DNA of 64,000 nt from Bacillus sp. NP157. Lineage in GTDB: Bacteria > Pseudomonadota > Gammaproteobacteria > Xanthomonadales > Rhodanobacteraceae. Both the position numbers and the translations under genes were made by a program. This document shows positions 44,552 through 58,246 of the stretch, piece after piece (the stretch's first letter is position 1; each line of letters starts with the position of its first letter). The notes beneath the pieces are model-generated. The model searched no databases. It saw only the letters and a program-made list of their open reading frames with translations, and was not told where the DNA came from. The DNA lies in NCBI GenBank assembly GCA_018889975.1, contig CP076546.1:1612001-1676000 (forward strand), in the 5' to 3' direction.

Positions 44552-46575
44552 TGGACTATCGGGCCGTCGCCGGTGGTGGCGGCCTGGAGGCGGCGGACCA
44601 GGGTGGGCCAGTCGACCTCGCGCTGGTGGCCGACCACGGTGAGGTGCGGCAGGCCACTGCCTTCGACGATAGTGTAGCCATCCTTCGCGGCGCCCAGCCC
44701 GCCCATGCTGCAGACGTCGCCCTTGAGGGTGCAGCTGAGCCCGATGCGGCGGTAACCGAAGGTCTTGAACAGTTTCAGGACCGTGCCCTGGAGGCCCCCG
44801 GCGATGCCGCCACCGCCGACCGAGGTGAGGTTGTTGACCGCCTTCTGGCTGATCCGGCCGCCCTTGTCGGCCAGCAGCGTGGCCTTGAACGCCGCGGGCT
44901 TCCAGGCGACCAGGCGCAGGTCGCTCACCCCGCCGCCAAGGCGACCGGTGATGCTGCCGAAGTCGAATACCGAGGTCATCTGGGCCAGGTCGAGGTTGCG
45001 CAGGGCGATATCGCCCGCGAGCACGGGGGCATCGCTGAACGGGCGCGACAGGGTCATGCCGGTGATGTCGACGAAGCCATCGAAGACGTTGAGCGACAGG
45101 CCGCCTGCCAGTTCGACGCGATCGTCGACGTAACGCAGCGAAGGCATGGCGCCACCGAGCGTTCCCTTGAATTCGGGCCAGCCGAGCGCGCGGCAGAACG
45201 CGCCCATGTCGATCTGGGTGAGGGCCAGCGAGGTCTGCAGCCGTTCGCCGACCGCTGCCGCGGGCTTCCAGCCAAGCGACAGCACGCGCAGGTGGCCATC
45301 CAGCACGGGGATGGCCATGGGCTTTTCCAGCGCCAGCGTGCCGGACTGGCTGCGCCAGCTGCCTTCGGCGGCACCATTCGGGATCCGGTAAACCTGCAAC
45401 GCGCGCCAGCCGAGTTTCGTGGCCGGGCGGTCTTCGTCCACGCTCCAGTCGAGCGAACCATGCAGTCCGTCGACGCCGAGCCGGCCATCGGCCATGGCCA
45501 GGTCGAGGCCGCTCGTCTGCAGGGCGAACGCGCTGGGGCCATTCGCGCCGATGGTGGCGTGGCCGGCAAGCTCACCCGAGGCGCGCAGCCCGTCGATCCC
45601 CCAAGCGCGTAGCAGGCCCTTGCCGTAGCGATCGTAGGCCGCGGGGAAGCGGGCATTGAAGCGATCGAGCTTCAGCAGTGAGAGGTCGCCCTTCGTATCG
45701 AAGCCGAGTTCGCCTTCCAGTTGGAGGGCGTCGGGGTCGATCACCCGCAGGCGGCGAATCGCCAGGCTACCCTTCTGCGAACGTGCCGATAGCGAAAGCT
45801 GCACGGGGTGGTCGGGCAGCTTCGCGTACAGGGGCCCAAGCAGCCATTCGCCACCGCGCAGGCTGGCATCGAGGTCGATCGTGGTGCCACTGGCCGCGGT
45901 GTCCAGTCCCACCCGCCCGTTGCCGCTGATCTTCTGCCCGGCGAGCTTGCCACCCGGGCTATCGAAGCCGACGCCGTCCAGGGCGAACTGGCCGGCCGCC
46001 TGGGTACCGGTGTCGAGGAGGTCGAGGGCGAGGTCGGCGTCGACCTTGCCGGTCGTCGTGCGGCCGGTCCACACCGTCGACAGTAATCCCTGTAGCCAGC
46101 CCGCCGGCAGGTTCTTGAGAGTTATCTGTGCGTGGGTGACCTGGTCCATCGGCAAGGCCACTTCCGCCAGCGTCTTATCCTGGGCGATCGACACAGTAAG
46201 CGTGTTGGCGGCCTCGTCGGCAACGATGCGCACGCCCGCGTCGGTCAGCGCGTTGCCCGGCGCACCGCGCAGGCGCACCCGCCCGTCGAAGATCCAGCGA
46301 CCCAGCTCGTCGCGGTCGAGCGCGCCGGTCATGCCGACCGCCAGTTTTCGCCAGCCCAACGCGGGGATGTCGGCGCGTTTCGCATCCAGCCGCAGCTGGA
46401 CGCCCTTGCCGTCGGCCTGCGGATCGAAGTCCGCCTGCATGCCGGTCATGGACATTCCCGGCAAAGTCAGGCTATCCGCACCGACCGAGAGCCCCGCCCA
46501 CGCGACCGTGCACCAGGACATGGCGATCCAGGCGACAAGGAAAAAGGCGATCGGGCGGGTTGATACGGGATGCAT
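44548..46575 (-). CDS. ydbH: YdbH-like AsmA-superfamily envelope protein
   Basis: A 675-residue protein starting at ATG 46575 (GGAG 4 bases upstream) with a signal anchor (RPIAFFLVAWIAMSWCTVAWA). The rest is long repetitive beta-strand sequence. The C-terminal half has the YdbH/dicarboxylate-transport domain: SGLDLAMADGRLGVDGLHGS, GLSLNVFDGFVDITGMTLSR, DLAQMTSVFDFGSITGRLGG and QKAVNNLTSVGGGGIAGGLQ. E. coli YdbH forms part of a bridge that carries phospholipids between inner and outer membranes. E. coli YdbH is about 880 residues, so this is shorter. The stop codon lies in a REP. Confidence 0.85.
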   Translation of the reverse strand: MHPVSTRPIAFFLVAWIAMSWCTVAWAGLSVGADSLTLPGMSMTGMQADFDPQADGKGVQLRLDAKRADIPALGWRKLAVGMTGALDRDELGRWIFDGRVRLRGAPGNALTDAGVRIVADEAANTLTVSIAQDKTLAEVALPMDQVTHAQITLKNLPAGWLQGLLSTVWTGRTTTGKVDADLALDLLDTGTQAAGQFALDGVGFDSPGGKLAGQKISGNGRVGLDTAASGTTIDLDASLRGGEWLLGPLYAKLPDHPVQLSLSARSQKGSLAIRRLRVIDPDALQLEGELGFDTKGDLSLLKLDRFNARFPAAYDRYGKGLLRAWGIDGLRASGELAGHATIGANGPSAFALQTSGLDLAMADGRLGVDGLHGSLDWSVDEDRPATKLGWRALQVYRIPNGAAEGSWRSQSGTLALEKPMAIPVLDGHLRVLSLGWKPAAAVGERLQTSLALTQIDMGAFCRALGWPEFKGTLGGAMPSLRYVDDRVELAGGLSLNVFDGFVDITGMTLSRPFSDAPVLAGDIALRNLDLAQMTSVFDFGSITGRLGGGVSDLRLVAWKPAAFKATLLADKGGRISQKAVNNLTSVGGGGIAGGLQGTVLKLFKTFGYRRIGLSCTLKGDVCSMGGLGAAKDGYTIVEGSGLPHLTVVGHQREVDWPTLVRRLQAATTGDGPIVQ

Positions 46576-46599
46576 GCTGCTCCATTCTGCCAAAACCAG

Positions 46600-47352
46600 A
46601 TGAACGACATGGAACGTTGCATGGACCCGACCCGGCCGCCCCCACTTGACCGCAGCATCGTTCGCACCGTACTGGTCGCGGACGACGACCCCTCCACCCG
46701 TCAGTTCCTCTCCGGCGCGCTGGTCTCGCTGGGCTTCGACGTGGCGCTGGCGGTGGATGGCGCGGATGCGCTGCGCCAGGCCAGGGCGACCCGCTTCGAC
46801 GCCTTGCTGATCGACTGCCGGATGCCGCATGGCGGGGCCATCGACGTCTTGCGCGACCTGCTCGAAAGCATCGATGCGGCCTCCGCGGGTGTCCCCGCGT
46901 TCGCCACCAGTGCGGAGATTTCCCCCGTGCTGCGCGGGGACATCGAAGCGGCCGGCTTCGTCGGCTGCATCGAAAAACCATGCAAGATCGCTGCGTTGAA
47001 ATTCGCGCTGGAAGCCGCCCTCGGCGTCGACCCACGAATGCAACTGCTGGATGACGCCGACGGACTCAAGGCCACGGGGGATGCCCAGATCCTGGATTCG
47101 CTGCGTGAGCTGCTCCGCATCGAATTGCAGCAGTTGCGCAGCGAGCTGCACACGCTGGCGCACGATCCCGCCGGCCTGGTCGATCGCCTGCATCGGCTGC
47201 GCTCTGCCTGTGGATTCTGCGGCGCGACGCGGCTGGGTGCGCAGACCAGGGCGCTGCAGGGTCATGTGGTGGAGGCACGGCAGGCCGCACCGGCGATGCT
47301 TGAGCGATTCCGGCGCGAGGTAGAGGCGACGATCGTGGCGCTTGCAAGGTAG
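46600..47352 (+). CDS. response regulator receiver with C-terminal Hpt-like domain
   Basis: About 250 residues; starts at ATG 46600, 46609 or 46621 are all possible. The receiver domain has the acidic pair (VLVADDDPSTRQFLS), the phospho-acceptor aspartate in LLIDCRMPHGG and the lysine in CIEKPCK. Residues about 160-250 resemble an Hpt domain, with HRLRSACGFCGATRLGAQTR in place of the canonical H-x-L-K-G-S motif, so the histidine may accept phosphate. No kinase is encoded nearby. Divergent from ydbH with only 24 bases between starts. Confidence 0.82.
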   Translation: MNDMERCMDPTRPPPLDRSIVRTVLVADDDPSTRQFLSGALVSLGFDVALAVDGADALRQARATRFDALLIDCRMPHGGAIDVLRDLLESIDAASAGVPAFATSAEISPVLRGDIEAAGFVGCIEKPCKIAALKFALEAALGVDPRMQLLDDADGLKATGDAQILDSLRELLRIELQQLRSELHTLAHDPAGLVDRLHRLRSACGFCGATRLGAQTRALQGHVVEARQAAPAMLERFRREVEATIVALAR

Positions 47353-47360
47353 CGTTGAGA

Positions 47361-48545
47361 TTATCCAACCAGAGGAAGATCCCTCGCGTAGGCCGGTGCG
47401 GCCGCCTTCCACCCGAAAACGTCGAGGAGCGCCTCATCCATGGCGCCCCAGCAATAGGCATGGATATGCAGCCCAGGACGCTCGAATGCCGTCTGTGCCT
47501 CGTCTAACAACATCGCGGAAATATCTTCCACGATCAAACGGTGAGGCTTTGCGGCCGCGATCAGGTGACGTTGCTCCGCTCTGTCGACGTTCAACATGCC
47601 TAGATCCGCGAACAACCTGTCATCGATGTCCCAGTTATCCCCCATCGGCTGGCCATGCGCGCCGGTGTAGAAATAGATGTTGCGAGCCGGTTGATGCTCA
47701 CGACTGATAGTCCGAAGTGCGTCTCGGGCGTGCGTATGGGTGATCCAGGTATCGGGGCCGAAGTGAATGGCTTCGGGAATGCCGGGGCTGGTCACCTTGA
47801 TCCACTTCGGCTTTATCGTCACGTGGGCATTTCCATTGGTCCATGCCACTCTTAGGCGACCGTCTGGCACATCGACGACGCTTCCCACCAACGTTCGCGC
47901 CACGCCATTCCTGCCAACAGGCGATCGGTCGGCTACGATGGGCGCCTTGCGCACGAAGCCAGGCGGGCGACTCACCGGCGCACGGGACATCGACAGCAGC
48001 GACAGATTCGCCGTCCTGCCAACCCGGGTCGCGAAGCCGGCTCCCATCGACGCCGGGCCTGCAGCAATGGCGACCCAACCGAAGATTGCGCTAGCCTTTG
48101 AGTCGCCCACTGCAAGCGCGCCAAGGGATCCAATCTCCGCTGCCACAGACACCATGTCGAATACTGCGGCTGCCGTCATGCTTGCCATGGATGCCGTAGA
48201 CACAGACGCCGTGAGGCCGCCTGCGGCCGCTGCACCCAAGGCGCCAGCGAGAGCGCCACCCGTCGCAATGGTGCCAGCCACGGCAGCGACCAGCCCCAGG
48301 CCCGCAATCAGCCATTCCCACCACGCATTGCCCGAGGGATCGATACGATTGATGGGGTCGCCGCTACAGTAGGCGTATCGATTCAAGCCACCGCGGTCGA
48401 ATGGGCTCATCAGGTCGGGGGACATAAACCGGCGCAGCGCGGGACCATAAAGCCGCGCACCCAATGGGTAGCCACCCGATTCGTTGTCGACCACCTCGCC
48501 TGCGTAGGCAAGACGGGGCCTATCCGTAACGTTGCTGCAATCCAT
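47361..48545 (-). CDS. orphan RHS C-terminal tip, module D (His/Cys-dyad domain)
   Basis: A 394-residue protein, no signal peptide. It begins inside the RHS-associated core (LAYAGEVVDNESGGYPLGA, RLYGPALRRFMSPDLMSPF, GGLNRYAYCSGDPINRIDPS), as though the 1300-residue shell had been removed. A hydrophobic Ala/Gly-rich stretch (about 75-170) follows, then the effector-like domain. Conserved positions there: His297 in NIYFYTGAHGQPMGDNW, RLIVEDIS, and Cys365 in HIHAYCWGAMDEALLDVF. Start ATG 48545 is preferred over TTG 48560 because GGAG precedes it at 9 bases. Its function is unknown. Confidence 0.8.
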   Translation of the reverse strand: MDCSNVTDRPRLAYAGEVVDNESGGYPLGARLYGPALRRFMSPDLMSPFDRGGLNRYAYCSGDPINRIDPSGNAWWEWLIAGLGLVAAVAGTIATGGALAGALGAAAAGGLTASVSTASMASMTAAAVFDMVSVAAEIGSLGALAVGDSKASAIFGWVAIAAGPASMGAGFATRVGRTANLSLLSMSRAPVSRPPGFVRKAPIVADRSPVGRNGVARTLVGSVVDVPDGRLRVAWTNGNAHVTIKPKWIKVTSPGIPEAIHFGPDTWITHTHARDALRTISREHQPARNIYFYTGAHGQPMGDNWDIDDRLFADLGMLNVDRAEQRHLIAAAKPHRLIVEDISAMLLDEAQTAFERPGLHIHAYCWGAMDEALLDVFGWKAAAPAYARDLPLVG

Positions 48546-48575
48546 GTCGAATCGCTCCAATCGTTGTTCATTGAC

Positions 48576-49133
48576 TCACGGTGTCGGCCAACTGACGTAC
48601 ACAGGCCTGGGCCTTGCCTTGAATAGTGCCAACAGCACTTCGTCGACCACGCCGTAGCACACAAGATGGATGTAGATGCCTGGCTCCTGGTAGAGCTTCG
48701 TTGCAAACTCCGGCGTGAGCTCGGCCAGGTCGATAAGGCGCACCGTCCGACCGTCAGAAATCATGCCTGTCGCGGCCCGCCCGGAAGGCTCGTTAAGATA
48801 AGCAATATCCGCAGGAAGCAACCGAGGGTCAGTCGCTCGTCTACCTGAAACGAGCCAGTTCTGCCCGTACCATTCTCCATGCGCGCCGCCAAAAATCGTG
48901 ATGTCCTGATCGGGATGCGCATGCACGACGTTCGCCAGGATCCACGGCGTGTCGCTCGTTGCAATGGGGCCGTCCGACGCATAATGCACAACGCCAGGAA
49001 ATCGGTCTTTGTCGAACACCGCATGCCAGGTGGGCTTGACGCTGGTGCTGCCGTCAGGGAAGGACCGCAGTTGTGCATCGGCTGGCACATCGCCCCTTTG
49101 ACGAACCACGCGGCCTCTCACCGTCGCGGGCAA
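48576..49133 (-). CDS. truncated RHS tip, module C (His/Cys-dyad domain only)
   Basis: A 185-residue frame from TTG 49133. It lacks the RHS core and hydrophobic stretch of its neighbours but keeps the terminal domain: His85 in ITIFGGAHGEWYGQNW and Cys159 in IYIHLVCYGVVDEVLLALF. Similarity to module D extends upstream of the TTG (FRRGSRVGAASDEGDV) as far as an in-frame TGA at 49202-49200. It therefore looks like a 5'-deleted module; translation is uncertain. Confidence 0.55.
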   Translation of the reverse strand: MPATVRGRVVRQRGDVPADAQLRSFPDGSTSVKPTWHAVFDKDRFPGVVHYASDGPIATSDTPWILANVVHAHPDQDITIFGGAHGEWYGQNWLVSGRRATDPRLLPADIAYLNEPSGRAATGMISDGRTVRLIDLAELTPEFATKLYQEPGIYIHLVCYGVVDEVLLALFKARPRPVYVSWPTP

Positions 49134-49473
49134 AACGTCGCCTTCATCCGACGCGGCTCCAACTCGGGAACCTCGCCGGAAAAGGAGAGTCTGGGCACAT
49201 CATTTTCTCATCGGCATCCATGCCCGTCGTTCCTCCCGTAACAACCATCGTCGTCAAGCAAACACTGAGACGACGGGATAGACGTCGAACAGGTCTGCAA
49301 GATCACGATCGGCTGCACCGAATCAGCACGCGGTCCAACATACGCCGATAAGGCGCCTGTGATCGCACAAGGCGCGCTTACAGCGCGTCATTCAACGTGC
49401 GTTCCCGGAATCAGCCGGCCAAGGCACTGACGCGTCGGAAAAAGTCGGCCGCGACATGAAGGCTTAGACTCTC
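49134..49473. other. 340-base gap with relics of a lost RHS module
   Basis: No intact gene. The left 65 bases still encode, on the minus strand, a continuation of the module C domain. Further along there is an inverted pair CCCGTCGT/ACGACGGG (near 49224 and 49269) but nothing recognisable as RHS core, immunity gene or promoter. It probably marks a deletion of the module's front part. Confidence 0.5.
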
Positions 49474-50694
49474 TCACGGCGCCAGTAGCCGCGATTCGTA
49501 GACGGGCGTTGCCTCGATGATGCCGAACATGTCCAGGAGCACCTCATCGACGGCACTGAAGCAGTAGGCATGCACATGTATGCCTGGCCTCCGGAAGTTT
49601 TCTCGTGCCGTGGCCACGGTGAGGTTACTGATGTCTTCGATGACTAGCTTATGAGGCGCCGCGGCCATGCTGAGCGCGCCCTGGTTAGCCACATCCTCGA
49701 AGTAGGAAACCGGATCCGGACCAATCCGCCTGGTCCTGTTCCAATTTCTTCCCATGGCATGTCCATGCACGCCGGTGTAGAAGAACAGGTCGCCAGGCGC
49801 GGCGTTCGCATCCCGGACGATCCCTGGCACGTAGGCTGTGATGTGCTGCCTTGCCACGGCGGTGTCGGCACCAAAATGAAGGACCCCTGGCAAGTCGTGG
49901 TTCGACGTTTGTATCCACTTGGGCTTAAGACGGACGTGCCAGCGCATGCTCGCGTCCTGCATCGCTGCGAAGCGGCTGTCTGGCACAAGCGAAGGACTCC
50001 TGATGAAGGTGCGCTTGACCGCGTTACGATCCACGGGGCTCTCTTGTTGAATCAGCTGTCGGCGCCTGGCAAACCGTACCGGCGGCTCCACGGGGCTCCG
50101 GTAGCGGCTTGCGCCACCTGACGCACTAAGGCCTGCACGCGAGATTCCAGCCAGCCCCACGGACGCCACACCCGTGCCCAAGGCAATCCACCCGAGAATC
50201 GCACCCGCTTTCGCGTCCTGAGTCGCCAGGGACACAGCCGAGCCGATTTCGGCGGCGACTGAAACGACATTGACCAAGGCAGCCGCCGTCATCGCCGCCA
50301 TGGAAACGGTGGATGTCGATGCGGTGAGGCTGCCAGCCGCGGCAGCGCCGACCACCCCAGCGAGCGCCCCGCCTGTGGCAACCGTGCCGGCAACCACGGC
50401 CACCAGGCCAATACCGGCGACCAGCCACTCCCACCATGCATGGCCGGACGGATCGATGCGGTTGACCGGGTCGCCGCCACTGTACGCGTATCGATTGAAA
50501 CCGCCCCGGTCGAACGGACTGAGCGTGTCGGGAGATACAAATCGATGTAACGCTGGGCCATATAGCCTGCCGCCCAGTAGATAAAAACCGTATTCGTCGA
50601 TTACCTCTCCCGCGTAGGCCAACTGCGCATTGCCAACCCCTATGCCGCGTTCCATGCCTGCTACCTCGGATTCGTTGCTGCCGGCCCACGGCAT
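49474..50694 (-). CDS. orphan RHS C-terminal tip, module B (His/Cys-dyad domain)
   Basis: A 406-residue protein. Start ATG 50694 has AGGGAG 6 bases upstream; ATG 50655 is an alternative. Residues about 25-80 are the RHS-core end (LAYAGEVIDEYGFYLLGGRL, FVSPDTLSPFDRGGFNRYAY, GGDPVNRIDPSGHAWWEWL). A hydrophobic Ala/Gly/Thr-rich stretch (80-175) follows, then a basic linker and the effector-like domain with His310 (DLFFYTGVHGHAMGRNW), LVIEDIS and Cys378 (HVHAYCFSAVDEVLLDMF). It is close to module D in the shared front part even at DNA level. Confidence 0.8.
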   Translation of the reverse strand: MPWAGSNESEVAGMERGIGVGNAQLAYAGEVIDEYGFYLLGGRLYGPALHRFVSPDTLSPFDRGGFNRYAYSGGDPVNRIDPSGHAWWEWLVAGIGLVAVVAGTVATGGALAGVVGAAAAGSLTASTSTVSMAAMTAAALVNVVSVAAEIGSAVSLATQDAKAGAILGWIALGTGVASVGLAGISRAGLSASGGASRYRSPVEPPVRFARRRQLIQQESPVDRNAVKRTFIRSPSLVPDSRFAAMQDASMRWHVRLKPKWIQTSNHDLPGVLHFGADTAVARQHITAYVPGIVRDANAAPGDLFFYTGVHGHAMGRNWNRTRRIGPDPVSYFEDVANQGALSMAAAPHKLVIEDISNLTVATARENFRRPGIHVHAYCFSAVDEVLLDMFGIIEATPVYESRLLAP

Positions 50695-50806
50695 TGGACA
50701 CTCCCTGGAGGACAGTAGCGTTGCAGCGCCCAATAGCGTCGACACCGTCGTGACCGGGAACACACTCTCCTACCTCACCGGCGTAAGCGGGAAACGACGA
50801 TATTAG

Positions 50807-51943
50807 TCAAGCGAGCATTGGCAATACGGGACGAGCATCGAATAGTTCAGCAACGTAGCGATCCGCGGCACCGTAGCAAATAAAGTCGAAGTGCGCCCCG
50901 TCTCTCTTGTACATGTCAGGCAGCTCGGAAGCCCAATACGGCCTCTCCGCACGAAAACGCTTACCAATGCGTCGCCGAAGAAAATCGATGACATCGTCGT
51001 CGGCTTTGAGCTCCATAACGTCGTCTAGATGTCGCGGGCTTCGTGCTGCACCGAGGCCCTCCCAATTGTCACCGTCTTGCGACCCATGCGAACCGTAATA
51101 GTAGAAAATGTCAGACTTCGGATGTTCCTGCCTGATCTTCTCTACAATCTTTCCTGCTTCAAAGGCATCGATGGGCGAATCCACCGCATACCGAAACGCC
51201 TTCTCATTCCTCGGGTTCGTGAATCGATACAACTGCGGCTTCAGCACGCGTCGTCGTGTCCCGTCACGGCTTACTTGGACTTCGAAACGTCCAGACCAGG
51301 TCCTGTCAAATGGTGCTCGGTACGTACCAGCCGGGCGCCGTGGCACGTCGACAATGGCATCCATCGGCCTCGCAGCCCTCTTGATTCCTCGCTCAACCCA
51401 ACGGATGTCACTGGCGTGGTGCCACTTGCCTGCGTTCTTCGCCATGCGCCACGCCGCGCCCCCTGCCGCACCCGACGCAATACCCGTCCCAAGTCCGACC
51501 CACCCGAAGATCGCCCCCGTTTTCGTATTACCTGTGGCCAACGATGCCGTCGCGCCAATCTCTGCGACCACCGAAACCACATCCAGCACGGCTGCGGTGG
51601 CAGCTACCGCACCTGACGATGTACCCAACGCCGCCATCATGCTTCCGGCCGCGCCTACTGCGCCGACCAGTGCACCGCCCGATGCAACCGCACCGACAAC
51701 GGACAACGCCAGGCCAACGCCGGCCAATAGCCAGTCCCACCAGGCGTCGCCGGAGGGGTCGATGCGGTTGATCGGATCCCCACTGCAGTACGCGTATCGA
51801 TTCAACCCGCCCGCATCGAAAGGGCTCGCCACGTCGGGGCTCACGAACTGTCGCGCCATCGTGCTGTAGAGCCTGCCACCCAGGACGTAGAAGCCGGCGT
51901 CGTGCTCGCTCGCTTCGCCCGCATAGGCGATCCGCGCAGTCAT
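50807..51943 (-). CDS. RHS C-terminal tip coupled to the shell gene, module A
   Basis: A 378-residue protein whose ATG overlaps the stop of the RHS shell (ATGA at 51943-51940). It starts exactly where an RHS core would continue: MTARIAYAGEASEHDAGFYV, LGGRLYSTMARQFVSPDV, GGLNRYAYCSGDPINRIDPS. A hydrophobic segment (about 65-160) leads to the effector-like domain, with His286 in IFYYYGSHGSQDGDNW and Cys356 in FDFICYGAADRYVAELF. This module lacks the IEDIS motif of B and D and is the most diverged. It is probably made in step with the shell and may assemble with it. Confidence 0.82.
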   Translation of the reverse strand: MTARIAYAGEASEHDAGFYVLGGRLYSTMARQFVSPDVASPFDAGGLNRYAYCSGDPINRIDPSGDAWWDWLLAGVGLALSVVGAVASGGALVGAVGAAGSMMAALGTSSGAVAATAAVLDVVSVVAEIGATASLATGNTKTGAIFGWVGLGTGIASGAAGGAAWRMAKNAGKWHHASDIRWVERGIKRAARPMDAIVDVPRRPAGTYRAPFDRTWSGRFEVQVSRDGTRRRVLKPQLYRFTNPRNEKAFRYAVDSPIDAFEAGKIVEKIRQEHPKSDIFYYYGSHGSQDGDNWEGLGAARSPRHLDDVMELKADDDVIDFLRRRIGKRFRAERPYWASELPDMYKRDGAHFDFICYGAADRYVAELFDARPVLPMLA

Positions 51944-54900
51944 CGGACGGGACTCCGCTGTCCTGCGTGGCTTGGCGATTCGCGCAGCCCACCGAACGCA
52001 TCGTAAGTCCGGATGCCAGTCACGCCGTCATGCGTCACGATGACCGAACCCTGCGGATCGGTACCAAGCAGCCACGTTGTTCGCACCGCCTGGGCAAGCC
52101 GTGTCTCGGCGATCGCGTTGCCACCCACGCGGATAAATCGCCTCGCTTCACCGTCCGTGGCCTGTTCGTAGGCCAACGCGCCGTCCTCATAGAAACGCCG
52201 TGTGCGTGTCGCTCCTTCGTCGACGATCCATGGACGCCCGCCTGGTCCGTGCTGGTAGCGCCATTCCTTACCTTCGGGCACGGCCATGCTCGAGATTCGC
52301 CCTGCCCCATCCCAGGCGAGCCGCATGCCGCGCCCGTCATCGATGAGGTTGCCGTCGGCGTCATAACGCAGCGACCAGCTTGTTTCTCCAGGCTGGCCGG
52401 CCCGGGTGCGCCGGATGCGCACGGCGCGATCCCGGTCTAACGTGTCGTAGTCGTAGGCCAACGTATCCACAACGCCATTCTTGCGCGTCGTGGTGACCTC
52501 GAGGAGGTTATCGATGGCGTCATGGCTGAAGGCCTGGCGAATGAATGGCTCGCCTTCGTCATCGACGGGAAGTTCGCTATCCGCGGCCGCTTCGATGGCA
52601 TGCACCACGAGCCGCCCGCGCGCGTCGTACTCGAAGGACTCTTCCCGGCGCAGTGTCCCCTCCGGACCATGCCAGCGCTTGGCCGTTACCTTGTTGTCCG
52701 CACGGTAGGCGAGCACGAGCCGACGCACAGCCCTGGCGTCTACCGTCCAGCTCACCTCATCGACACGGCCCAATCCGTCGTAGTGCGCGTCCTGGGCCAA
52801 AGTGGCGCCGTCAGGTCCGTTTGTGGTGCGGCGAGTCGCACGCGAAAGCGCGTCGTATTCAAATGACGTTCGCAGGTCGCCATCGATGACCTCGTCTAGC
52901 CGCCCGAGATCGTCGTAGGCACACTCGCGGACCACGCCATCCTGGCCCACCTTGCCAAGGATCCGGCCGGCTGGCGACAGCGTCGTCGTGCAATGTTTCG
53001 CGTCGCCGTCAGCGGGCTCGACGGTCTGCTCGGTCAGGCGTCCCCGCGCGTCCGGGGTGATGTGCATGACGCCAGCTTCCGCACCCAGCAAGGTTGGCAA
53101 GCCCGTTCGTCGATCGTAGTCGCCACGAGCGATGGTCGGGCCGTGCTCGCCGATCCGGGTATTCAGCAGCTTCTCGCCGAGCCGCCGGTCATATGTCATG
53201 CGTATGTCGGTGCCCGAAGGGCGACGTGTCGATGCGGGGGACAGTTGCCCCGGCACGTACACGTTCACGGTTTCCAGGCTGCCGGACTTTTCTCGTGTAA
53301 TGCGTCCCAGGCCGTCATATTCACGCACGCCGAGGAAAAATTCGCCTGCGGGTGCCTGCGCGACGACGCGAAGCATTTCGGCCCGCGGTTTGCCGCCTTC
53401 GTCGACGTAGGTACGCTGCACCCGGCTGCCGTCCGGGAGCGTTGTTTCGACGAGGCGACCGTCGCTATCCCACGCTTGCAGCGTCTGCCGCGACTGGTCG
53501 TCCCATGCTGCCGTTTGCTCGGTGACGCGCCCCATCCCGTCATAGGTCCAGCGCTCCACGAGACCGCCCGTCGTATGACTGACCTTGCGTCCGGCAGCGT
53601 CGGTGACCGTGCTGGTCGGGCCCTCCGCCAGTCCCCCACCTTCGCGCCACGCGGTGCTGCGCAGGCAGACGCCGTGCCCTTCAACATCGTTCACAAGGCG
53701 CGTCTCACTGAACGACACGCTGCCATCCGGATGCATGACCTGCGCGGCGCGCCCCCAGTCGTCGTAGCTATAGCGCGTCACCAGCTCCATTACCGGATGG
53801 CCAGGCCACTCATCGCGTCCCGTTTCCGCGACCTGCTGGCCGAGCCCGTCGTAGGCGTAGCGCAACGTCGTGAACCATCCCTCCTCGCCCACGGCCTCCG
53901 CCGCGGCGATGTCGAGGCCACGTTCATCGAGCCAGTTTCGACGCCTCACGCCAAGCACGTCGCGGGCTTCGACCCAACGCTCGGTCGTGGATACCTGGTA
54001 GGCCCAGGTCCGGCTCGCTTCGTAATCCGCCATGCCCGGCGAAACGGTTTCGCTCACCATCCGTCCCAGGCTGTCGTAGCCGTAAGCCGTCTTCACAAAC
54101 ATGCTTTCCGTCGCCGTGACCAGGCCACTAACGAGGGCGAGCGTTTCGCTGGACGTCGATTCCAGACCGTCGTGGGTACGCAGGGTCTTCTTCGTCGTCC
54201 ACCCGACCGGCCCCAGCGAATAATCGATCGTCGCTTGGGCGTCGCCCCACGGCTTGCGAAGGATCTCCGAGGCAAGGCACCCGTGTGCCAGGCTTCCGTC
54301 GGTCACGTACGTCCGGTCGAGTTGCGAACGCTGCCGCTCCCCTTTCGCATCGCTGACCCATTCGGCTTCCGTGAAGCACTGGACGTAACGCCGTGTCCCA
54401 TCGCGAACAGGTACTGTGTCGTACCGGTAGTAGGTGGACACGACAGGGCCACCACCCGGGCCGGGCGATACCGTGTGCTGTCTGAGCCGGCGGACGATAC
54501 CCATTGGGTCGGGCGGGCAAAGCCATTCACCGCTGTGGTCGCGGAAGCCTTCGGCGGGATAGTGCGTCGATATCTCCCGGACACCGCTCGCGCTGTCGAA
54601 CTTCGACGTCACATTGCCCCGGTCGTCGTAGTCGGTTTCCGTATACGTCTCAAGCACGATTCCGGGGTCATCAGCATGCCATTGCCGGGTCGTTTGCCGG
54701 TGGGGCAGCTGGAAATCAGGCGGTTGGTCGGCAAACGGCTTGCCGGGCAGATCGCCGTAACGCATCGTGACTTCGCTCGTGACCTTCCCGCGGGTGGTGG
54801 TTTCTTTGGTCAGCAGATGGAACTGGTTGAAGTCGCGCCGCGTGACGATAACCGGCTTCCCCTCGTTGTACTGCGTTTCCTCTGCCCAGTACGTAAACGA

Positions 54901-55950
54901 TCCCTGGCCGATCAGATGGATCAGCTGGTCGCGCGCAGCCACCCAGTTGGCAACGATGTCGAATCCCGAGAAGTTCGTGCGCGAGAAGCGATAGTGAGTC
55001 TCGCCGAGCGCTACGGAAGGCTCGCTAACGCTCGCGATCCGGTGCTGGGTCACGATCGGCATGTGGGTCAGGGGCCCGCCCTTCGGCAATGCGAGACCGG
55101 CATCGTCATAGACCATCGTTTCGACGAGCCCCGTCGGGCTCACGAGCCGTCGGATGAGGAACACAGGGATCGGCGCATTTGCCTGGCGATAGTCAAATGT
55201 CCATGTGGCCCTTTCCTCGGCGATGACCGACTCCGCGTTGGCTGCGGCCAGCGTGGGCAGCTCGATCCGGACCAGCCGGTTGCCTTCGCGGATGAAACGC
55301 AGTGTGACCGGCTCGTCTTGCCCCATGTGCAGGGACACGTCGGTCTGGTTGGCACCGTTATAGTCAATCGATAGCAGTTCGACGCCGCTGTCGTCCCTGA
55401 CGTTGCCGAGGCCAAATCCCCCGCGCGGTAGTGGAACCCATCCGAGAGTGAGGCTATCGCCCGCCGGGTTGACCAGACGGTGCGTGCGAAGGACTTCTCC
55501 GCGGTTTCCCGGTAACGCCAGTTCTTCCGTATGGCCGGAGATATGCGAAAGCGTGGCCGTGATGATGTTGGGGCCAGGCGTGAGGATGAATGTTTCGAGC
55601 TTGCGATCCTCGAACGTCACCAGCTGGCCGGGTATCATTGCGTGCGCCTTGAACGACTCGCCGCTATCAAGGGCAAGCATTCGGGTCGACCGATCAAGCG
55701 TGCTCGTCCGCAGTGACCATCCCTGACCAAACCCTTCGTCCACGCTCGACAGTGCGTCGTACCCCAGGTGAAACGTGAACGATGGGCCGCGCAGCGTATT
55801 GCCTTCCCCGCATTGCAGGTCGACGCTGACGATGTACGTGCCGGTACGTGGATCCACGCGACCTGCCACGTGGCTGAAGAAGTTCAGTGCCGTCGAGTGC
55901 GTGCCGCCCGACGGTGCCGCTGGCAGTGACGTTCCTTGTTCAGGTGGCAT
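51940..55950 (-). CDS. RHS repeat shell protein ending before the tip
   Basis: A 1336-residue protein from ATG 55950 (GGAGGG upstream). The N-terminal part (NFFSHVAGRVDPRTGTYIVS, LGYDALSSVDEGFGQGWSL) is the Pseudomonas/Burkholderia-type RHS start. Many YD repeats follow, such as YDGLGQQVAETGRDEWPG, YDDWGRAAQVMHPDGS, YDGMGRVTEQTA and YDDLGRLDEVIDGDLRTSFE. The frame stops at YDAFGGLRESPSHAGQRSPV-R, in the middle of the RHS-associated core, and the next gene continues the core. No PAAR, VgrG-binding or signal sequence was seen, so the export route is unknown. RHS repeats build a hollow shell around a C-terminal cargo in related toxins. Confidence 0.9.
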   Translation of the reverse strand: MPPEQGTSLPAAPSGGTHSTALNFFSHVAGRVDPRTGTYIVSVDLQCGEGNTLRGPSFTFHLGYDALSSVDEGFGQGWSLRTSTLDRSTRMLALDSGESFKAHAMIPGQLVTFEDRKLETFILTPGPNIITATLSHISGHTEELALPGNRGEVLRTHRLVNPAGDSLTLGWVPLPRGGFGLGNVRDDSGVELLSIDYNGANQTDVSLHMGQDEPVTLRFIREGNRLVRIELPTLAAANAESVIAEERATWTFDYRQANAPIPVFLIRRLVSPTGLVETMVYDDAGLALPKGGPLTHMPIVTQHRIASVSEPSVALGETHYRFSRTNFSGFDIVANWVAARDQLIHLIGQGSFTYWAEETQYNEGKPVIVTRRDFNQFHLLTKETTTRGKVTSEVTMRYGDLPGKPFADQPPDFQLPHRQTTRQWHADDPGIVLETYTETDYDDRGNVTSKFDSASGVREISTHYPAEGFRDHSGEWLCPPDPMGIVRRLRQHTVSPGPGGGPVVSTYYRYDTVPVRDGTRRYVQCFTEAEWVSDAKGERQRSQLDRTYVTDGSLAHGCLASEILRKPWGDAQATIDYSLGPVGWTTKKTLRTHDGLESTSSETLALVSGLVTATESMFVKTAYGYDSLGRMVSETVSPGMADYEASRTWAYQVSTTERWVEARDVLGVRRRNWLDERGLDIAAAEAVGEEGWFTTLRYAYDGLGQQVAETGRDEWPGHPVMELVTRYSYDDWGRAAQVMHPDGSVSFSETRLVNDVEGHGVCLRSTAWREGGGLAEGPTSTVTDAAGRKVSHTTGGLVERWTYDGMGRVTEQTAAWDDQSRQTLQAWDSDGRLVETTLPDGSRVQRTYVDEGGKPRAEMLRVVAQAPAGEFFLGVREYDGLGRITREKSGSLETVNVYVPGQLSPASTRRPSGTDIRMTYDRRLGEKLLNTRIGEHGPTIARGDYDRRTGLPTLLGAEAGVMHITPDARGRLTEQTVEPADGDAKHCTTTLSPAGRILGKVGQDGVVRECAYDDLGRLDEVIDGDLRTSFEYDALSRATRRTTNGPDGATLAQDAHYDGLGRVDEVSWTVDARAVRRLVLAYRADNKVTAKRWHGPEGTLRREESFEYDARGRLVVHAIEAAADSELPVDDEGEPFIRQAFSHDAIDNLLEVTTTRKNGVVDTLAYDYDTLDRDRAVRIRRTRAGQPGETSWSLRYDADGNLIDDGRGMRLAWDGAGRISSMAVPEGKEWRYQHGPGGRPWIVDEGATRTRRFYEDGALAYEQATDGEARRFIRVGGNAIAETRLAQAVRTTWLLGTDPQGSVIVTHDGVTGIRTYDAFGGLRESPSHAGQRSPVR

Positions 55951-55974: not shown

Positions 55975-58101
55975 TTACACAAACTCGAAGTCTTCCCGAG
56001 TGCCTGCTTTGAACTGCAACGTCAGGTTGTGCTCCGTACCGTAACCGTCGAGCAACGTTACCGCCATGCGATCACGCGGTAGTTTCTCATTACCCGCCAT
56101 GGGCACGCCGACACGGCCACATAGCACAAGCACACTACTGTAAAGCTGCGGACGATCCAGCTGTTTCGGCACACTCATCAGGGCCGCTACACCCGCGTCA
56201 CAGTGGATATCCCTGGAATCTGGCTGCGCATACGCCAGGGCGCAAGGGTTGGTGTCACCCGGCATCAACGTTTGCCAGTGCACAACGCCTGCCGGGTTGC
56301 ATGACAACCTCTTGATCGACGGCCCGAAGCCCGTGCGGGGCTGGATGGTCATTACACCAGCCCTGTTGTAAACCGCCTCGTCGATGTCTTCCGCCGTATG
56401 TGGCAGCTCGTACCAGCCGATGTCGATTTCGCTACCGCTGTATCGAAGTGGAATCTCCTGCGTGATATCGATGCCCAGACGCACGTCATAGCTCGGGTCG
56501 GGACGTGCCGCCTCGCCCGGCGGGGTCACATGGCCCGTACTGGCATAAATCGTGCCGTTCCGGCCCTGTATGCTGAAGGCAAGGCGCAAGGGGATCCCGT
56601 GAGCCGCGGCATCGACCGAGATAAAGAAGTACCGCGTGTCCGACGCGATGGACTCCGACGCAGTGAAAGAACCGGGATACCTGGCGTAACCTGCGTCGTG
56701 GTGCTGCGCCGCCCAGCCTACGTCGCCTCCTGTCCATGCCGTATCGGTGAAAGGCACCGGCTCCCTTGAGTCATGGTCGAGGAAGCGTAACGATGCCCAT
56801 TCTTCTTCGGTCAATGAGGTGTCGACACCGCCGAGCCTGGCTTCGACAGTGATGCCAACCCTGACCTGTTGCCGACCATTCGCGTAAAGGCGAGTCTGTT
56901 GTAGCTGGATACCGAGGCTGTCGACCGAAAAGACATCGCTACTGATCGCCGCTACACTGGAGTGAGAGTCGATCGCAAGGTAGTTGAAACCATTGCCACC
57001 GATCAGGAACAGGCGAATCTTGTGATCATTGCCAAACTCGTCTCGCAAGAGCAAATCGGCGGATCGTCTGGACGGCAGACGCGCCACGTTACGGTCGTAT
57101 ATCTGCAAGTGTTCGTCGCTGAGAACCATGCCGATGACGAGGGCCGAGGTGTCGTGTGTATTGCTGACCGCATACTCGTCCATGAGCTCCGGTATGCTCC
57201 ATCGAAAAGCGTGACTGGCACCGGCAAGGAGGCAGCCAAGCGAATCGGAGTATCCAACTATCTTGCTTCGCGGCTGATACACATAAGTGATGCACCATTC
57301 CGCACCGCTCGGCGCCTTGCCCTCATCGTTCCAGAGACTGAACTTTGCAAGTCCCCCATCGGACATCGAAACCCAGTGAAATACGGTCTTCTCATACGTT
57401 AGAGTGATTAGTTGCTCATACGATCGCAGGCTATTGTTGGAACCTTTGACGCGCGTATCCAGTAACCTGTGCCGATCATCGGACCATTTTCGGCCGTAGT
57501 AGGCGATGTCAGGCTGATTGAACTTCGTGCCGATGATATTCACGGACGAGTTGAACTTCCCGAATCCGTCGCCGCGATCGCTACCTTCCTCGATGCCTGG
57601 TAGATCCCAATTGGTGGACGCGATTACGCTACCGTTCTCGTCGATGAACGCGACGGCGACACGCAGCGATTCGGCGACTTCCGTCATCACCCAGAAATCG
57701 AAAACCTGCGTTCCCGTTGCTCGCACGCCAACATCCTTCACGCGCCTTTCGTCCGCCTCGCCCGCCGCCATCGGGGCAGCAAACGTCATTACCAGGTTCT
57801 CGTTCCACACGTACGGCGACGGTATCTTCCAGACCTTCCAGGCGGTGTACTTTCCTGAGCCCAGAAGATTGCCACCGGAGTATGAGATCAGTTTAAAGCT
57901 ATTGAAAATCTCGGCCGGGGTGAGCTCGCGAGGCATGCCGTTCTCGACCGCCAGAAACTCCACCCTGATCTTGCACGCCTGGCGCCCATTACTGAATATG
58001 TAGAACTTGGGCCGCACATATTCCGAGCCTTCGCGAAAAATGCGGAGGAAATTGAAGCTCACGCCACTCAACGGCGTTGCCAGCGTCGTGTCACGTTGCA
58101 T
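55975..58101 (-). CDS. RHS-associated modular protein of unknown function
   Basis: A 708-residue protein from ATG 58101 (AAGGAAGGGAG upstream), directly before the RHS shell gene (24-base gap). It has two related halves: VRPKFYIFSNGRQACKIRVE near the N-terminus and QQTRLYANGRQQVRVGITVE near residue 430. Each starts a beta-rich module with a following LT-E-E/LTPAE region. It ends MAVTLLDGYGTEHNLTLQFK. No signal peptide or enzymatic motif. Similar proteins stand upstream of RHS genes in Pseudomonas, as I recall. The coding sequence is visibly AT-richer than the core genome, hinting at transfer. Confidence 0.72.
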   Translation of the reverse strand: MQRDTTLATPLSGVSFNFLRIFREGSEYVRPKFYIFSNGRQACKIRVEFLAVENGMPRELTPAEIFNSFKLISYSGGNLLGSGKYTAWKVWKIPSPYVWNENLVMTFAAPMAAGEADERRVKDVGVRATGTQVFDFWVMTEVAESLRVAVAFIDENGSVIASTNWDLPGIEEGSDRGDGFGKFNSSVNIIGTKFNQPDIAYYGRKWSDDRHRLLDTRVKGSNNSLRSYEQLITLTYEKTVFHWVSMSDGGLAKFSLWNDEGKAPSGAEWCITYVYQPRSKIVGYSDSLGCLLAGASHAFRWSIPELMDEYAVSNTHDTSALVIGMVLSDEHLQIYDRNVARLPSRRSADLLLRDEFGNDHKIRLFLIGGNGFNYLAIDSHSSVAAISSDVFSVDSLGIQLQQTRLYANGRQQVRVGITVEARLGGVDTSLTEEEWASLRFLDHDSREPVPFTDTAWTGGDVGWAAQHHDAGYARYPGSFTASESIASDTRYFFISVDAAAHGIPLRLAFSIQGRNGTIYASTGHVTPPGEAARPDPSYDVRLGIDITQEIPLRYSGSEIDIGWYELPHTAEDIDEAVYNRAGVMTIQPRTGFGPSIKRLSCNPAGVVHWQTLMPGDTNPCALAYAQPDSRDIHCDAGVAALMSVPKQLDRPQLYSSVLVLCGRVGVPMAGNEKLPRDRMAVTLLDGYGTEHNLTLQFKAGTREDFEFV

Positions 58102-58246
58102 CCCGATACTCCCTTCCTTGCGAGATACGCTCAACTTACGCCGCCACATGAGGCAGCGCGCGGCTGGCCGAACGCTGAGGAATAAATTCGCCATGCTTTC
58201 CCGGCACCGGATCTTCAAGTGCCCGAAAGCGATGGAAATCGGTCCT

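Follow-up and report, generated by a model that had tools for sequence, protein, structure and literature searches.

The RHS core of toxins such as RhsA of P. protegens, an effector of the type VI secretion system (T6SS), spirals into the cocoon, seals it and bears a pair of aspartates that cuts off the toxin (PMC8765631). In RhsA a single gene encodes both shell and tip. In Tc toxins such as Yen-Tc, the shell and the C subunits come from separate genes, with several tips per B subunit (PMC11067744, PMC7861908); Yersinia entomophaga has a single tcB with several tcC, one of them at a distant locus (PMC11067744). Displaced C-terminal ends also occur as orphan cassettes. Orphan cdiA-CT generally lack initiation signals and are accompanied by immunity genes (PMC3150448), and the orphan Rhs toxins of Salmonella are made inside the cell (PMC7043789). 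For the tip domain Tox-HDC (PF15656), the activity of a thiol peptidase or a transglutaminase has been predicted, aimed at distant targets, eukaryotes for example, and an immunity gene is typically missing (PMC3482391). Here we describe a locus in a 64,000-nucleotide stretch of DNA (the window; contig CP076546.1, positions 1,612,001 to 1,676,000, deposited as Bacillus sp. NP157), in which an RHS shell gene is followed by four separately encoded modules, A to D. Judged by analogy, the locus most likely works like a TcB with several TcC loaded in trans, yet it is not a Tc toxin. No description of such a split RHS locus turned up in the open literature among the matches listed. The design looks real and little known, and does not look like a broken gene.

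An open RHS shell and its modules

The genus of the window's genome (G000) is, by inference, Luteibacter; the named relatives of module D are from Luteibacter (five) and Stenotrophomonas (one). The genes lie on the minus strand in the order UP (the partner of the shell), RHS shell, A, B, C and D (Table 1). A gap of 24 nt separates UP from the shell, the shell and A overlap in ATGA, and the modules are spaced by 112 nt (A-B), 340 nt (B-C) and 30 nt (C-D). A preliminary description of this DNA had listed the shell and the four same-strand modules, and the listing of open reading frames (ORFs) reproduced their positions. It had also claimed that A, B and D restart within the RHS core. This is the case: the core model TIGR03696 matches A (E 1.4e-15), B (5.4e-16) and D (2.4e-18) and has no match in the shell, which is thus without a core or tip of its own.

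The shell is recognized in Pfam by RHS_repeat (PF05593, E 1.2e-26) and has YD repeats; RHS_repeat, DUF6443 and a weak PDZ_5 are its only Pfam matches at E ≤ 1. TcB subunits carry SpvB and TcdB mid-domain families. These are not among the shell's matches at that threshold, nor is PAAR or any other N-terminal domain of the T6SS. UP has no Pfam or NCBIfam family at E ≤ 1 (the protein was scanned from 58182 on). Its second unit, predicted by AlphaFold2 with a pLDDT (predicted local distance difference test) of 80.9, gives weak structural matches to immunoglobulin (Ig) and antigen-binding fragment (Fab) folds, and the model consists of Ig-like beta-sandwiches. UP was found in 12 of 398 genomes, which are precisely the carriers of the shell, and in none of the other 386. 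Its role in attachment or docking is a guess. Weaker UP matches, unlinked, were also seen in G237 and G396.

By their sequences the four modules are homologous but diverged, with identities of 53% between B and D, 35-37% between A and either of these, and ~30% between C and each other module. The preliminary description had counted four modules, which applies in full to A, B and D, each with a hydrophobic linker after the core; C, in which TIGR03696 has no match, is the HDC domain only, its core lost. All four have Tox-HDC as their highest-scoring Pfam family (C 31.2, D 22.3, A 17.1 and B 15.0 bits, with a cut-off of 21 bits that C and D exceed), and the H, N and C residues of the HDC signature are kept in each. 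AlphaFold2 predicts a confident block in the D tip (pLDDT 80-97 over residues 211-390), but this tip has no confident structural match. Both autoprotease aspartates of the free modules align with those of RHS proteins of known structure. The Asp pair is kept on the free modules, and therefore the sealing and cutting part would lie on the cargo protein and the wall on the shell.

Table 1. Features of the locus in window coordinates
Feature	Position	Strand	Description
UP	55975..58218	-	747 aa ORF from TTG; in-frame ATG at 58101; two tandem ~345-aa units
RHS shell	51940..55950	-	1336 aa; stops ahead of RHS core; no toxin tip
Module A	50807..51943	-	378 aa; RHS core (residues 3-65), hydrophobic linker, HDC-type tip
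Module B	49474..50694	-	406 aa; RHS core (residues 21-85), hydrophobic linker, HDC-type tip
Module C	48576..49133	-	185 aa from TTG; HDC domain alone, no core or linker
Module D	47361..48545	-	394 aa from ATG (399 aa from TTG at 48560); RHS core, hydrophobic linker, HDC-type tip
Core-start relic FPAYAGEV	50771..50794	-	In frame, directly past the stop of A
Relic of A-like module end, FGAADRDLADLFDVYPVVSVFA	49257..49322	-	tblastn, 54.5% over 22 residues, E 0.005
Core-start relic VPRLSFSGEV	49169..49216	-	Weak tblastn match to D, 50% over 16 residues, E 0.69

Comparison with described systems

The closest likeness is to the Tc toxins. As in TcC, modules A, B and D of the window bear an RHS core with the autoprotease Asp pair. 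However, the TcA family (PF18276), present in 4 of 13 shell carriers, has no match in the window's genome; the shell is without the TcB Pfam domains; the shell part of the modules comes to ~65-85 residues, as against ~680 in Yersinia TcC; and the window has a tandem module array and an Ig-like partner in UP. The locus shares with T6SS effectors of the RhsA type the RHS cocoon and the C-terminal autoprotease core (PMC8765631). Unlike RhsA, its shell has no PAAR family and is made apart from the tips. The T6SS sheath family VipB (PF05943), present in 8 of 13 shell carriers, has no match in the window's genome, and four other carriers (G008, G013, G237 and G396) also have neither VipB nor TcA.

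With orphan CdiA-CT and Rhs-CT cassettes (PMC3150448, PMC7043789) the locus has in common displaced C-terminal modules downstream and signs of recombination and decay. It differs from them in a main gene that is tipless, in modules that have starts and mostly Shine-Dalgarno (SD) words, and in having no immunity genes. Six-frame translations of the A-B, B-C and C-D gaps held no immunity-like ORF, as the preliminary description had claimed, but this is not distinctive, being typical of Tox-HDC (PMC3482391). The tips resemble that family also in the H, D/N, C signature; they depart from it in that A and B fall below the Pfam cut-off and D lacks a confident fold match.

A proposed carrier loaded in trans

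On balance we favor a split RHS toxin, in which UP and the open-ended shell would be a constant carrier and the modules would be made separately and loaded in trans. Each module, as a separate polypeptide, would supply the last strands that close the shell together with the aspartyl autoprotease dyad, and would also bring a hydrophobic segment and an effector domain. With one module per shell, one carrier gene could thus serve several cargoes. Inside the shell, the Asp pair of the module itself would probably release the cargo, and this would probably work in a neighboring eukaryote as a cysteine hydrolase or transferase. The shell looks incomplete by itself, and its closure in trans by one of A, B and D is the most straightforward interpretation. 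We infer assembly in trans, cleavage, delivery by UP or the hydrophobic segment, the enzyme chemistry, the target and toxicity. If loading in trans is real, one shell gene serves many cargoes without recombination, and closure of the shell needs only ~70 residues of the cargo protein, far below Yersinia TcC. It would also point to a route for RHS toxins that uses neither T6SS nor TcA and involves a new family of partner proteins.

Several results weigh against this proposal. Three genomes (G018, G004 and G005) have fused proteins, two each, indicating that separation is not required. The residue after DPxG in the window's modules is N, D or H, and the published cleavage consensus has W, L or F there (PMC8765631); because of this difference cleavage may not occur. 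The core part of the AlphaFold2 model of D is of low confidence, so the model lends no support to shell closure. Promoter prediction at the locus gave nothing above chance. One module start in G013 (L040:970), excluded from the SD count given below, has only a GTG and no SD word. Among the paralogs of the window, A and B give a ratio of nonsynonymous to synonymous substitution rates (dN/dS) of 0.41, and dS was undefined for A-D and for UP. Finally, decay of modules is evident from the relics in the gaps and from the truncation of C, which is what a cassette reservoir would lead one to expect.

Start signals, constraint and decay

The preliminary description had given each tip its own start with an SD sequence. 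Such words do precede the four starts of the window: GGAG ahead of A, B and D, and AAGG ahead of the TTG assigned to C, a start that is not certain. More widely, a 4-base SD word was found at 27 of 31 module starts, the window's four included, as against 36 of 480 internal in-frame ATG/GTG controls; for each module we picked as its start the first start codon met when going upstream from the core. Compared with G013, the dN/dS proxies (NG86) are 0.16 for the shell, 0.11 for A, 0.14 for B (vs G013 m4) and 0.23 for C, and the paralogs B and D of the window give 0.15; all are rough, since dS is near or past saturation. These values suggest constraint on the genes over most of the time of divergence from G013, which does not imply that each works at present. 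The intact frames and the low proxies against G013 also support the reading of the preliminary description.

The relics in the A-B and B-C gaps are, by their sequences, remains of further or longer modules, and VPRLSFSGEV may derive from the front that C has lost. The core-linker part of A, B and D contains a 193-nt repeat of 73-74% identity. Judging from sequence comparison, the fronts and backs of the modules recombine; module 1 of G013 has its linker nearest to A and its tip nearest to C. Such mixing fits the earlier suggestion of interchangeable, independently made cargo subunits, in which the co-assembly of shell and tip is conjectural. The repeat, the mixed fronts and backs and the relics would also be consistent with a silent reservoir, in which only A partners the shell and B, C and D recombine into the A position, as orphan CdiA-CT or Rhs cassettes do. 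The tight coupling by overlap with the shell, which is confined to A, points the same way. However, the downstream modules have starts of their own, mostly with SD words, whereas orphan cdiA-CT generally have no initiation signals and come with immunity genes (PMC3150448), and in other arrays the module coupled to the shell is in many cases not the catalytic one, as detailed below. We therefore consider a silent reservoir unlikely.

Module C is probably a decaying or free-standing enzyme. It is without core and linker; its closest relative in G013, module 1 (L040:2-958, front cut by the contig start), is 59% identical to it over the HDC domain and still has the linker and the last part of the core. 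A module that lacks the core entirely raises the question whether all the modules are stand-alone proteins, secreted or intracellular (for example toxin-antitoxin-like), for which the shell is no longer used. Their own starts, and the intracellular production of the Salmonella orphan toxins (PMC7043789), would agree with this. But A, B and D retain the RHS core and both aspartates, of no obvious use without a shell, and the gaps of the window hold no antitoxin or immunity ORF, so that this explanation appears improbable, more so than the reservoir.

Split and fused relatives

The layout was looked for in relatives, as the preliminary description had proposed, and the same kind recurs both within the genus and in Stenotrophomonas. 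At a threshold of 1e-60 the shell family occurs in 11 of the 23 genomes of the genus. In six it is split just before the core, in two it is split ~400 residues earlier, and in three it is fused. The late split with free core-plus-tip modules is that of the window, G013, G003, G006, G008 and G021, and the shells of five other genomes of the genus end within ~30 residues of the end of the window's shell. In G013 a contig break separates the shell from the array, and in G006 only the first module and the start of the second are on the contig of the shell. In G011 and G012 (L044, L045), the early-split genomes, the shell has ~1000 residues and most modules repeat ~400 shell residues together with core and tip; these modules are nearer to TcC in their proportions. 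Five loci taken for Stenotrophomonas (VV52, UBA4619, PS02289, S. rhizophila DE0483, taken to be G396, and G237, which shares the genus code of G396) have UP, a shell ending ~100 residues before the core (mid split) and two or three free modules.

In a tree of 19 shells, the late state falls in two sets (one with support of 87/80 only), the fused state in two, and the early and mid states in one each. The change between split and fused states, in whichever direction, therefore occurred more than once. The splits that recur in nature would mark the sites at which an RHS shell can be interrupted. Another way to obtain such loci is the wrecking of one fused RHS gene by a frameshift or stop, with debris left behind, and the three genomes with fused versions are in line with it. 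However, six genomes of the genus have the split, its position almost coincides among them although the frame relations differ, and shell and modules look constrained. Wreckage is thus a very improbable origin, and the comparative data favor separate working genes over debris.

The junction of shell and first module is ATGA in the window, G013 and G021. In G003 and G006 there is an in-frame stop, and a new SD word and ATG 12 and 9 nt on, respectively; in G008 the start lies 23 nt on. Because the junction types differ among genomes, a common frameshift device is unlikely. A fused shell-A protein could still be made in the window by -1 frameshifting at the ATGA overlap, leaving B-D as extra tips, and the frame of A is indeed open for 28 codons upstream of its ATG. 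No classical slippery heptamer was seen by eye in the overlap, and with the other kinds of junction in G003, G006 and G008 we give frameshifting hardly any credence. Among the modules of G008 (L046:17478-19399) there are also, by eye, two similar tandem lipoprotein-like ORFs.

Tip diversity and a possible division of labor

The shell-adjacent module lacks the conserved Cys of the HDC signature in six of the seven arrays with a complete first module (L043, L046, L047, L053, L044 and L045), the window being the exception; one truncated module (L053) and one intact module on an unlinked contig (L054) were left out of this count. By contrast, both H and C are kept in 25 of 25 later modules (hand count; Fisher 7.7e-6, from related and so non-independent sequences), seven of which have the asparagine replaced. 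The rule is less sharp among database modules for which no array position is known: P0025, P0027 and P0028 are without H and C, and P0007 is without H. The first tip of G006 seems to be of another type and not a decayed HDC domain.

The first modules of G003, G006, G008 and G021 keep the hydrophobic segment after the core, whereas in G003, G008 and G021 ten of the 11 later modules tested fall below the hydrophobicity threshold of 1.6, two of them narrowly (1.59). From the sequences, this pattern suggests a division of labor between first and later modules. The segment is kept in all six fused proteins, in all eight early-split modules and in all 11 Stenotrophomonas modules tested. A family of first modules (G021, G008, G003 and five database proteins) shows 35-99% identity where the alignment is full length.

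The preliminary description had called all the tips homologous, which holds in the window but not elsewhere, as the Stenotrophomonas arrays carry varied tips. PPxY motifs bind WW domains. In Stenotrophomonas (L075, L080-L083), PPxY is present in 9 of 19 tips, several of them close relatives and so not independent, with 18 motifs in all, 17 of which lie within the last 42 residues; in 2000 shuffles the mean was 0.43 and the highest count 5. None was found in the five Stenotrophomonas shells, in the module fronts or in 24 Luteibacter tips. Bacterial effectors that exploit ligases of the NEDD4 family are known (PMC7342019, PMC12720080). Tentatively, the loci may represent a separate class of split RHS toxins, directed against eukaryotes and reliant on neither T6SS nor TcA, made of an Ig-like partner, an open shell and trans cartridges. 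In one clade the first cartridge, coupled to the shell, would have become a catalytically dead, hydrophobic and translocator-like piece and the later ones would keep the enzyme, and the PPxY tails of Stenotrophomonas could bind proteins of the host that have WW domains, NEDD4-type ubiquitin ligases for instance. This larger picture is possible, and we hold it with less conviction than loading in trans itself.

Some further tips were noted. That of L075:6643-8412 has a weak ADP-ribosyltransferase-like match (ART-PolyVal, E 0.11), and by eye the tip of L080:6483-7928 (VV52) is very similar to it. Two free core modules, L078:8001-9377 and L079:8001-9326, share a contig with the shell locus, at a distance of at least ~160 kb. 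The tip of L078 (P0026) is barnase-like (PF00545), and L079 matches it along its length, with 50% identity in the best segment. No same-strand ORF of at least 80 aa is listed just behind these two modules; smaller ORFs were not looked for.

Other genes of the window's genome

No further Tox-HDC match was found in the window's genome at E ≤ 1. Its two other RHS-core genes look ordinarily fused, each having core and tip within a single reading frame. A 260-aa ORF at 46570-47352 on the plus strand, which by eye resembles a response-regulator receiver protein, runs convergently toward the end of module D.

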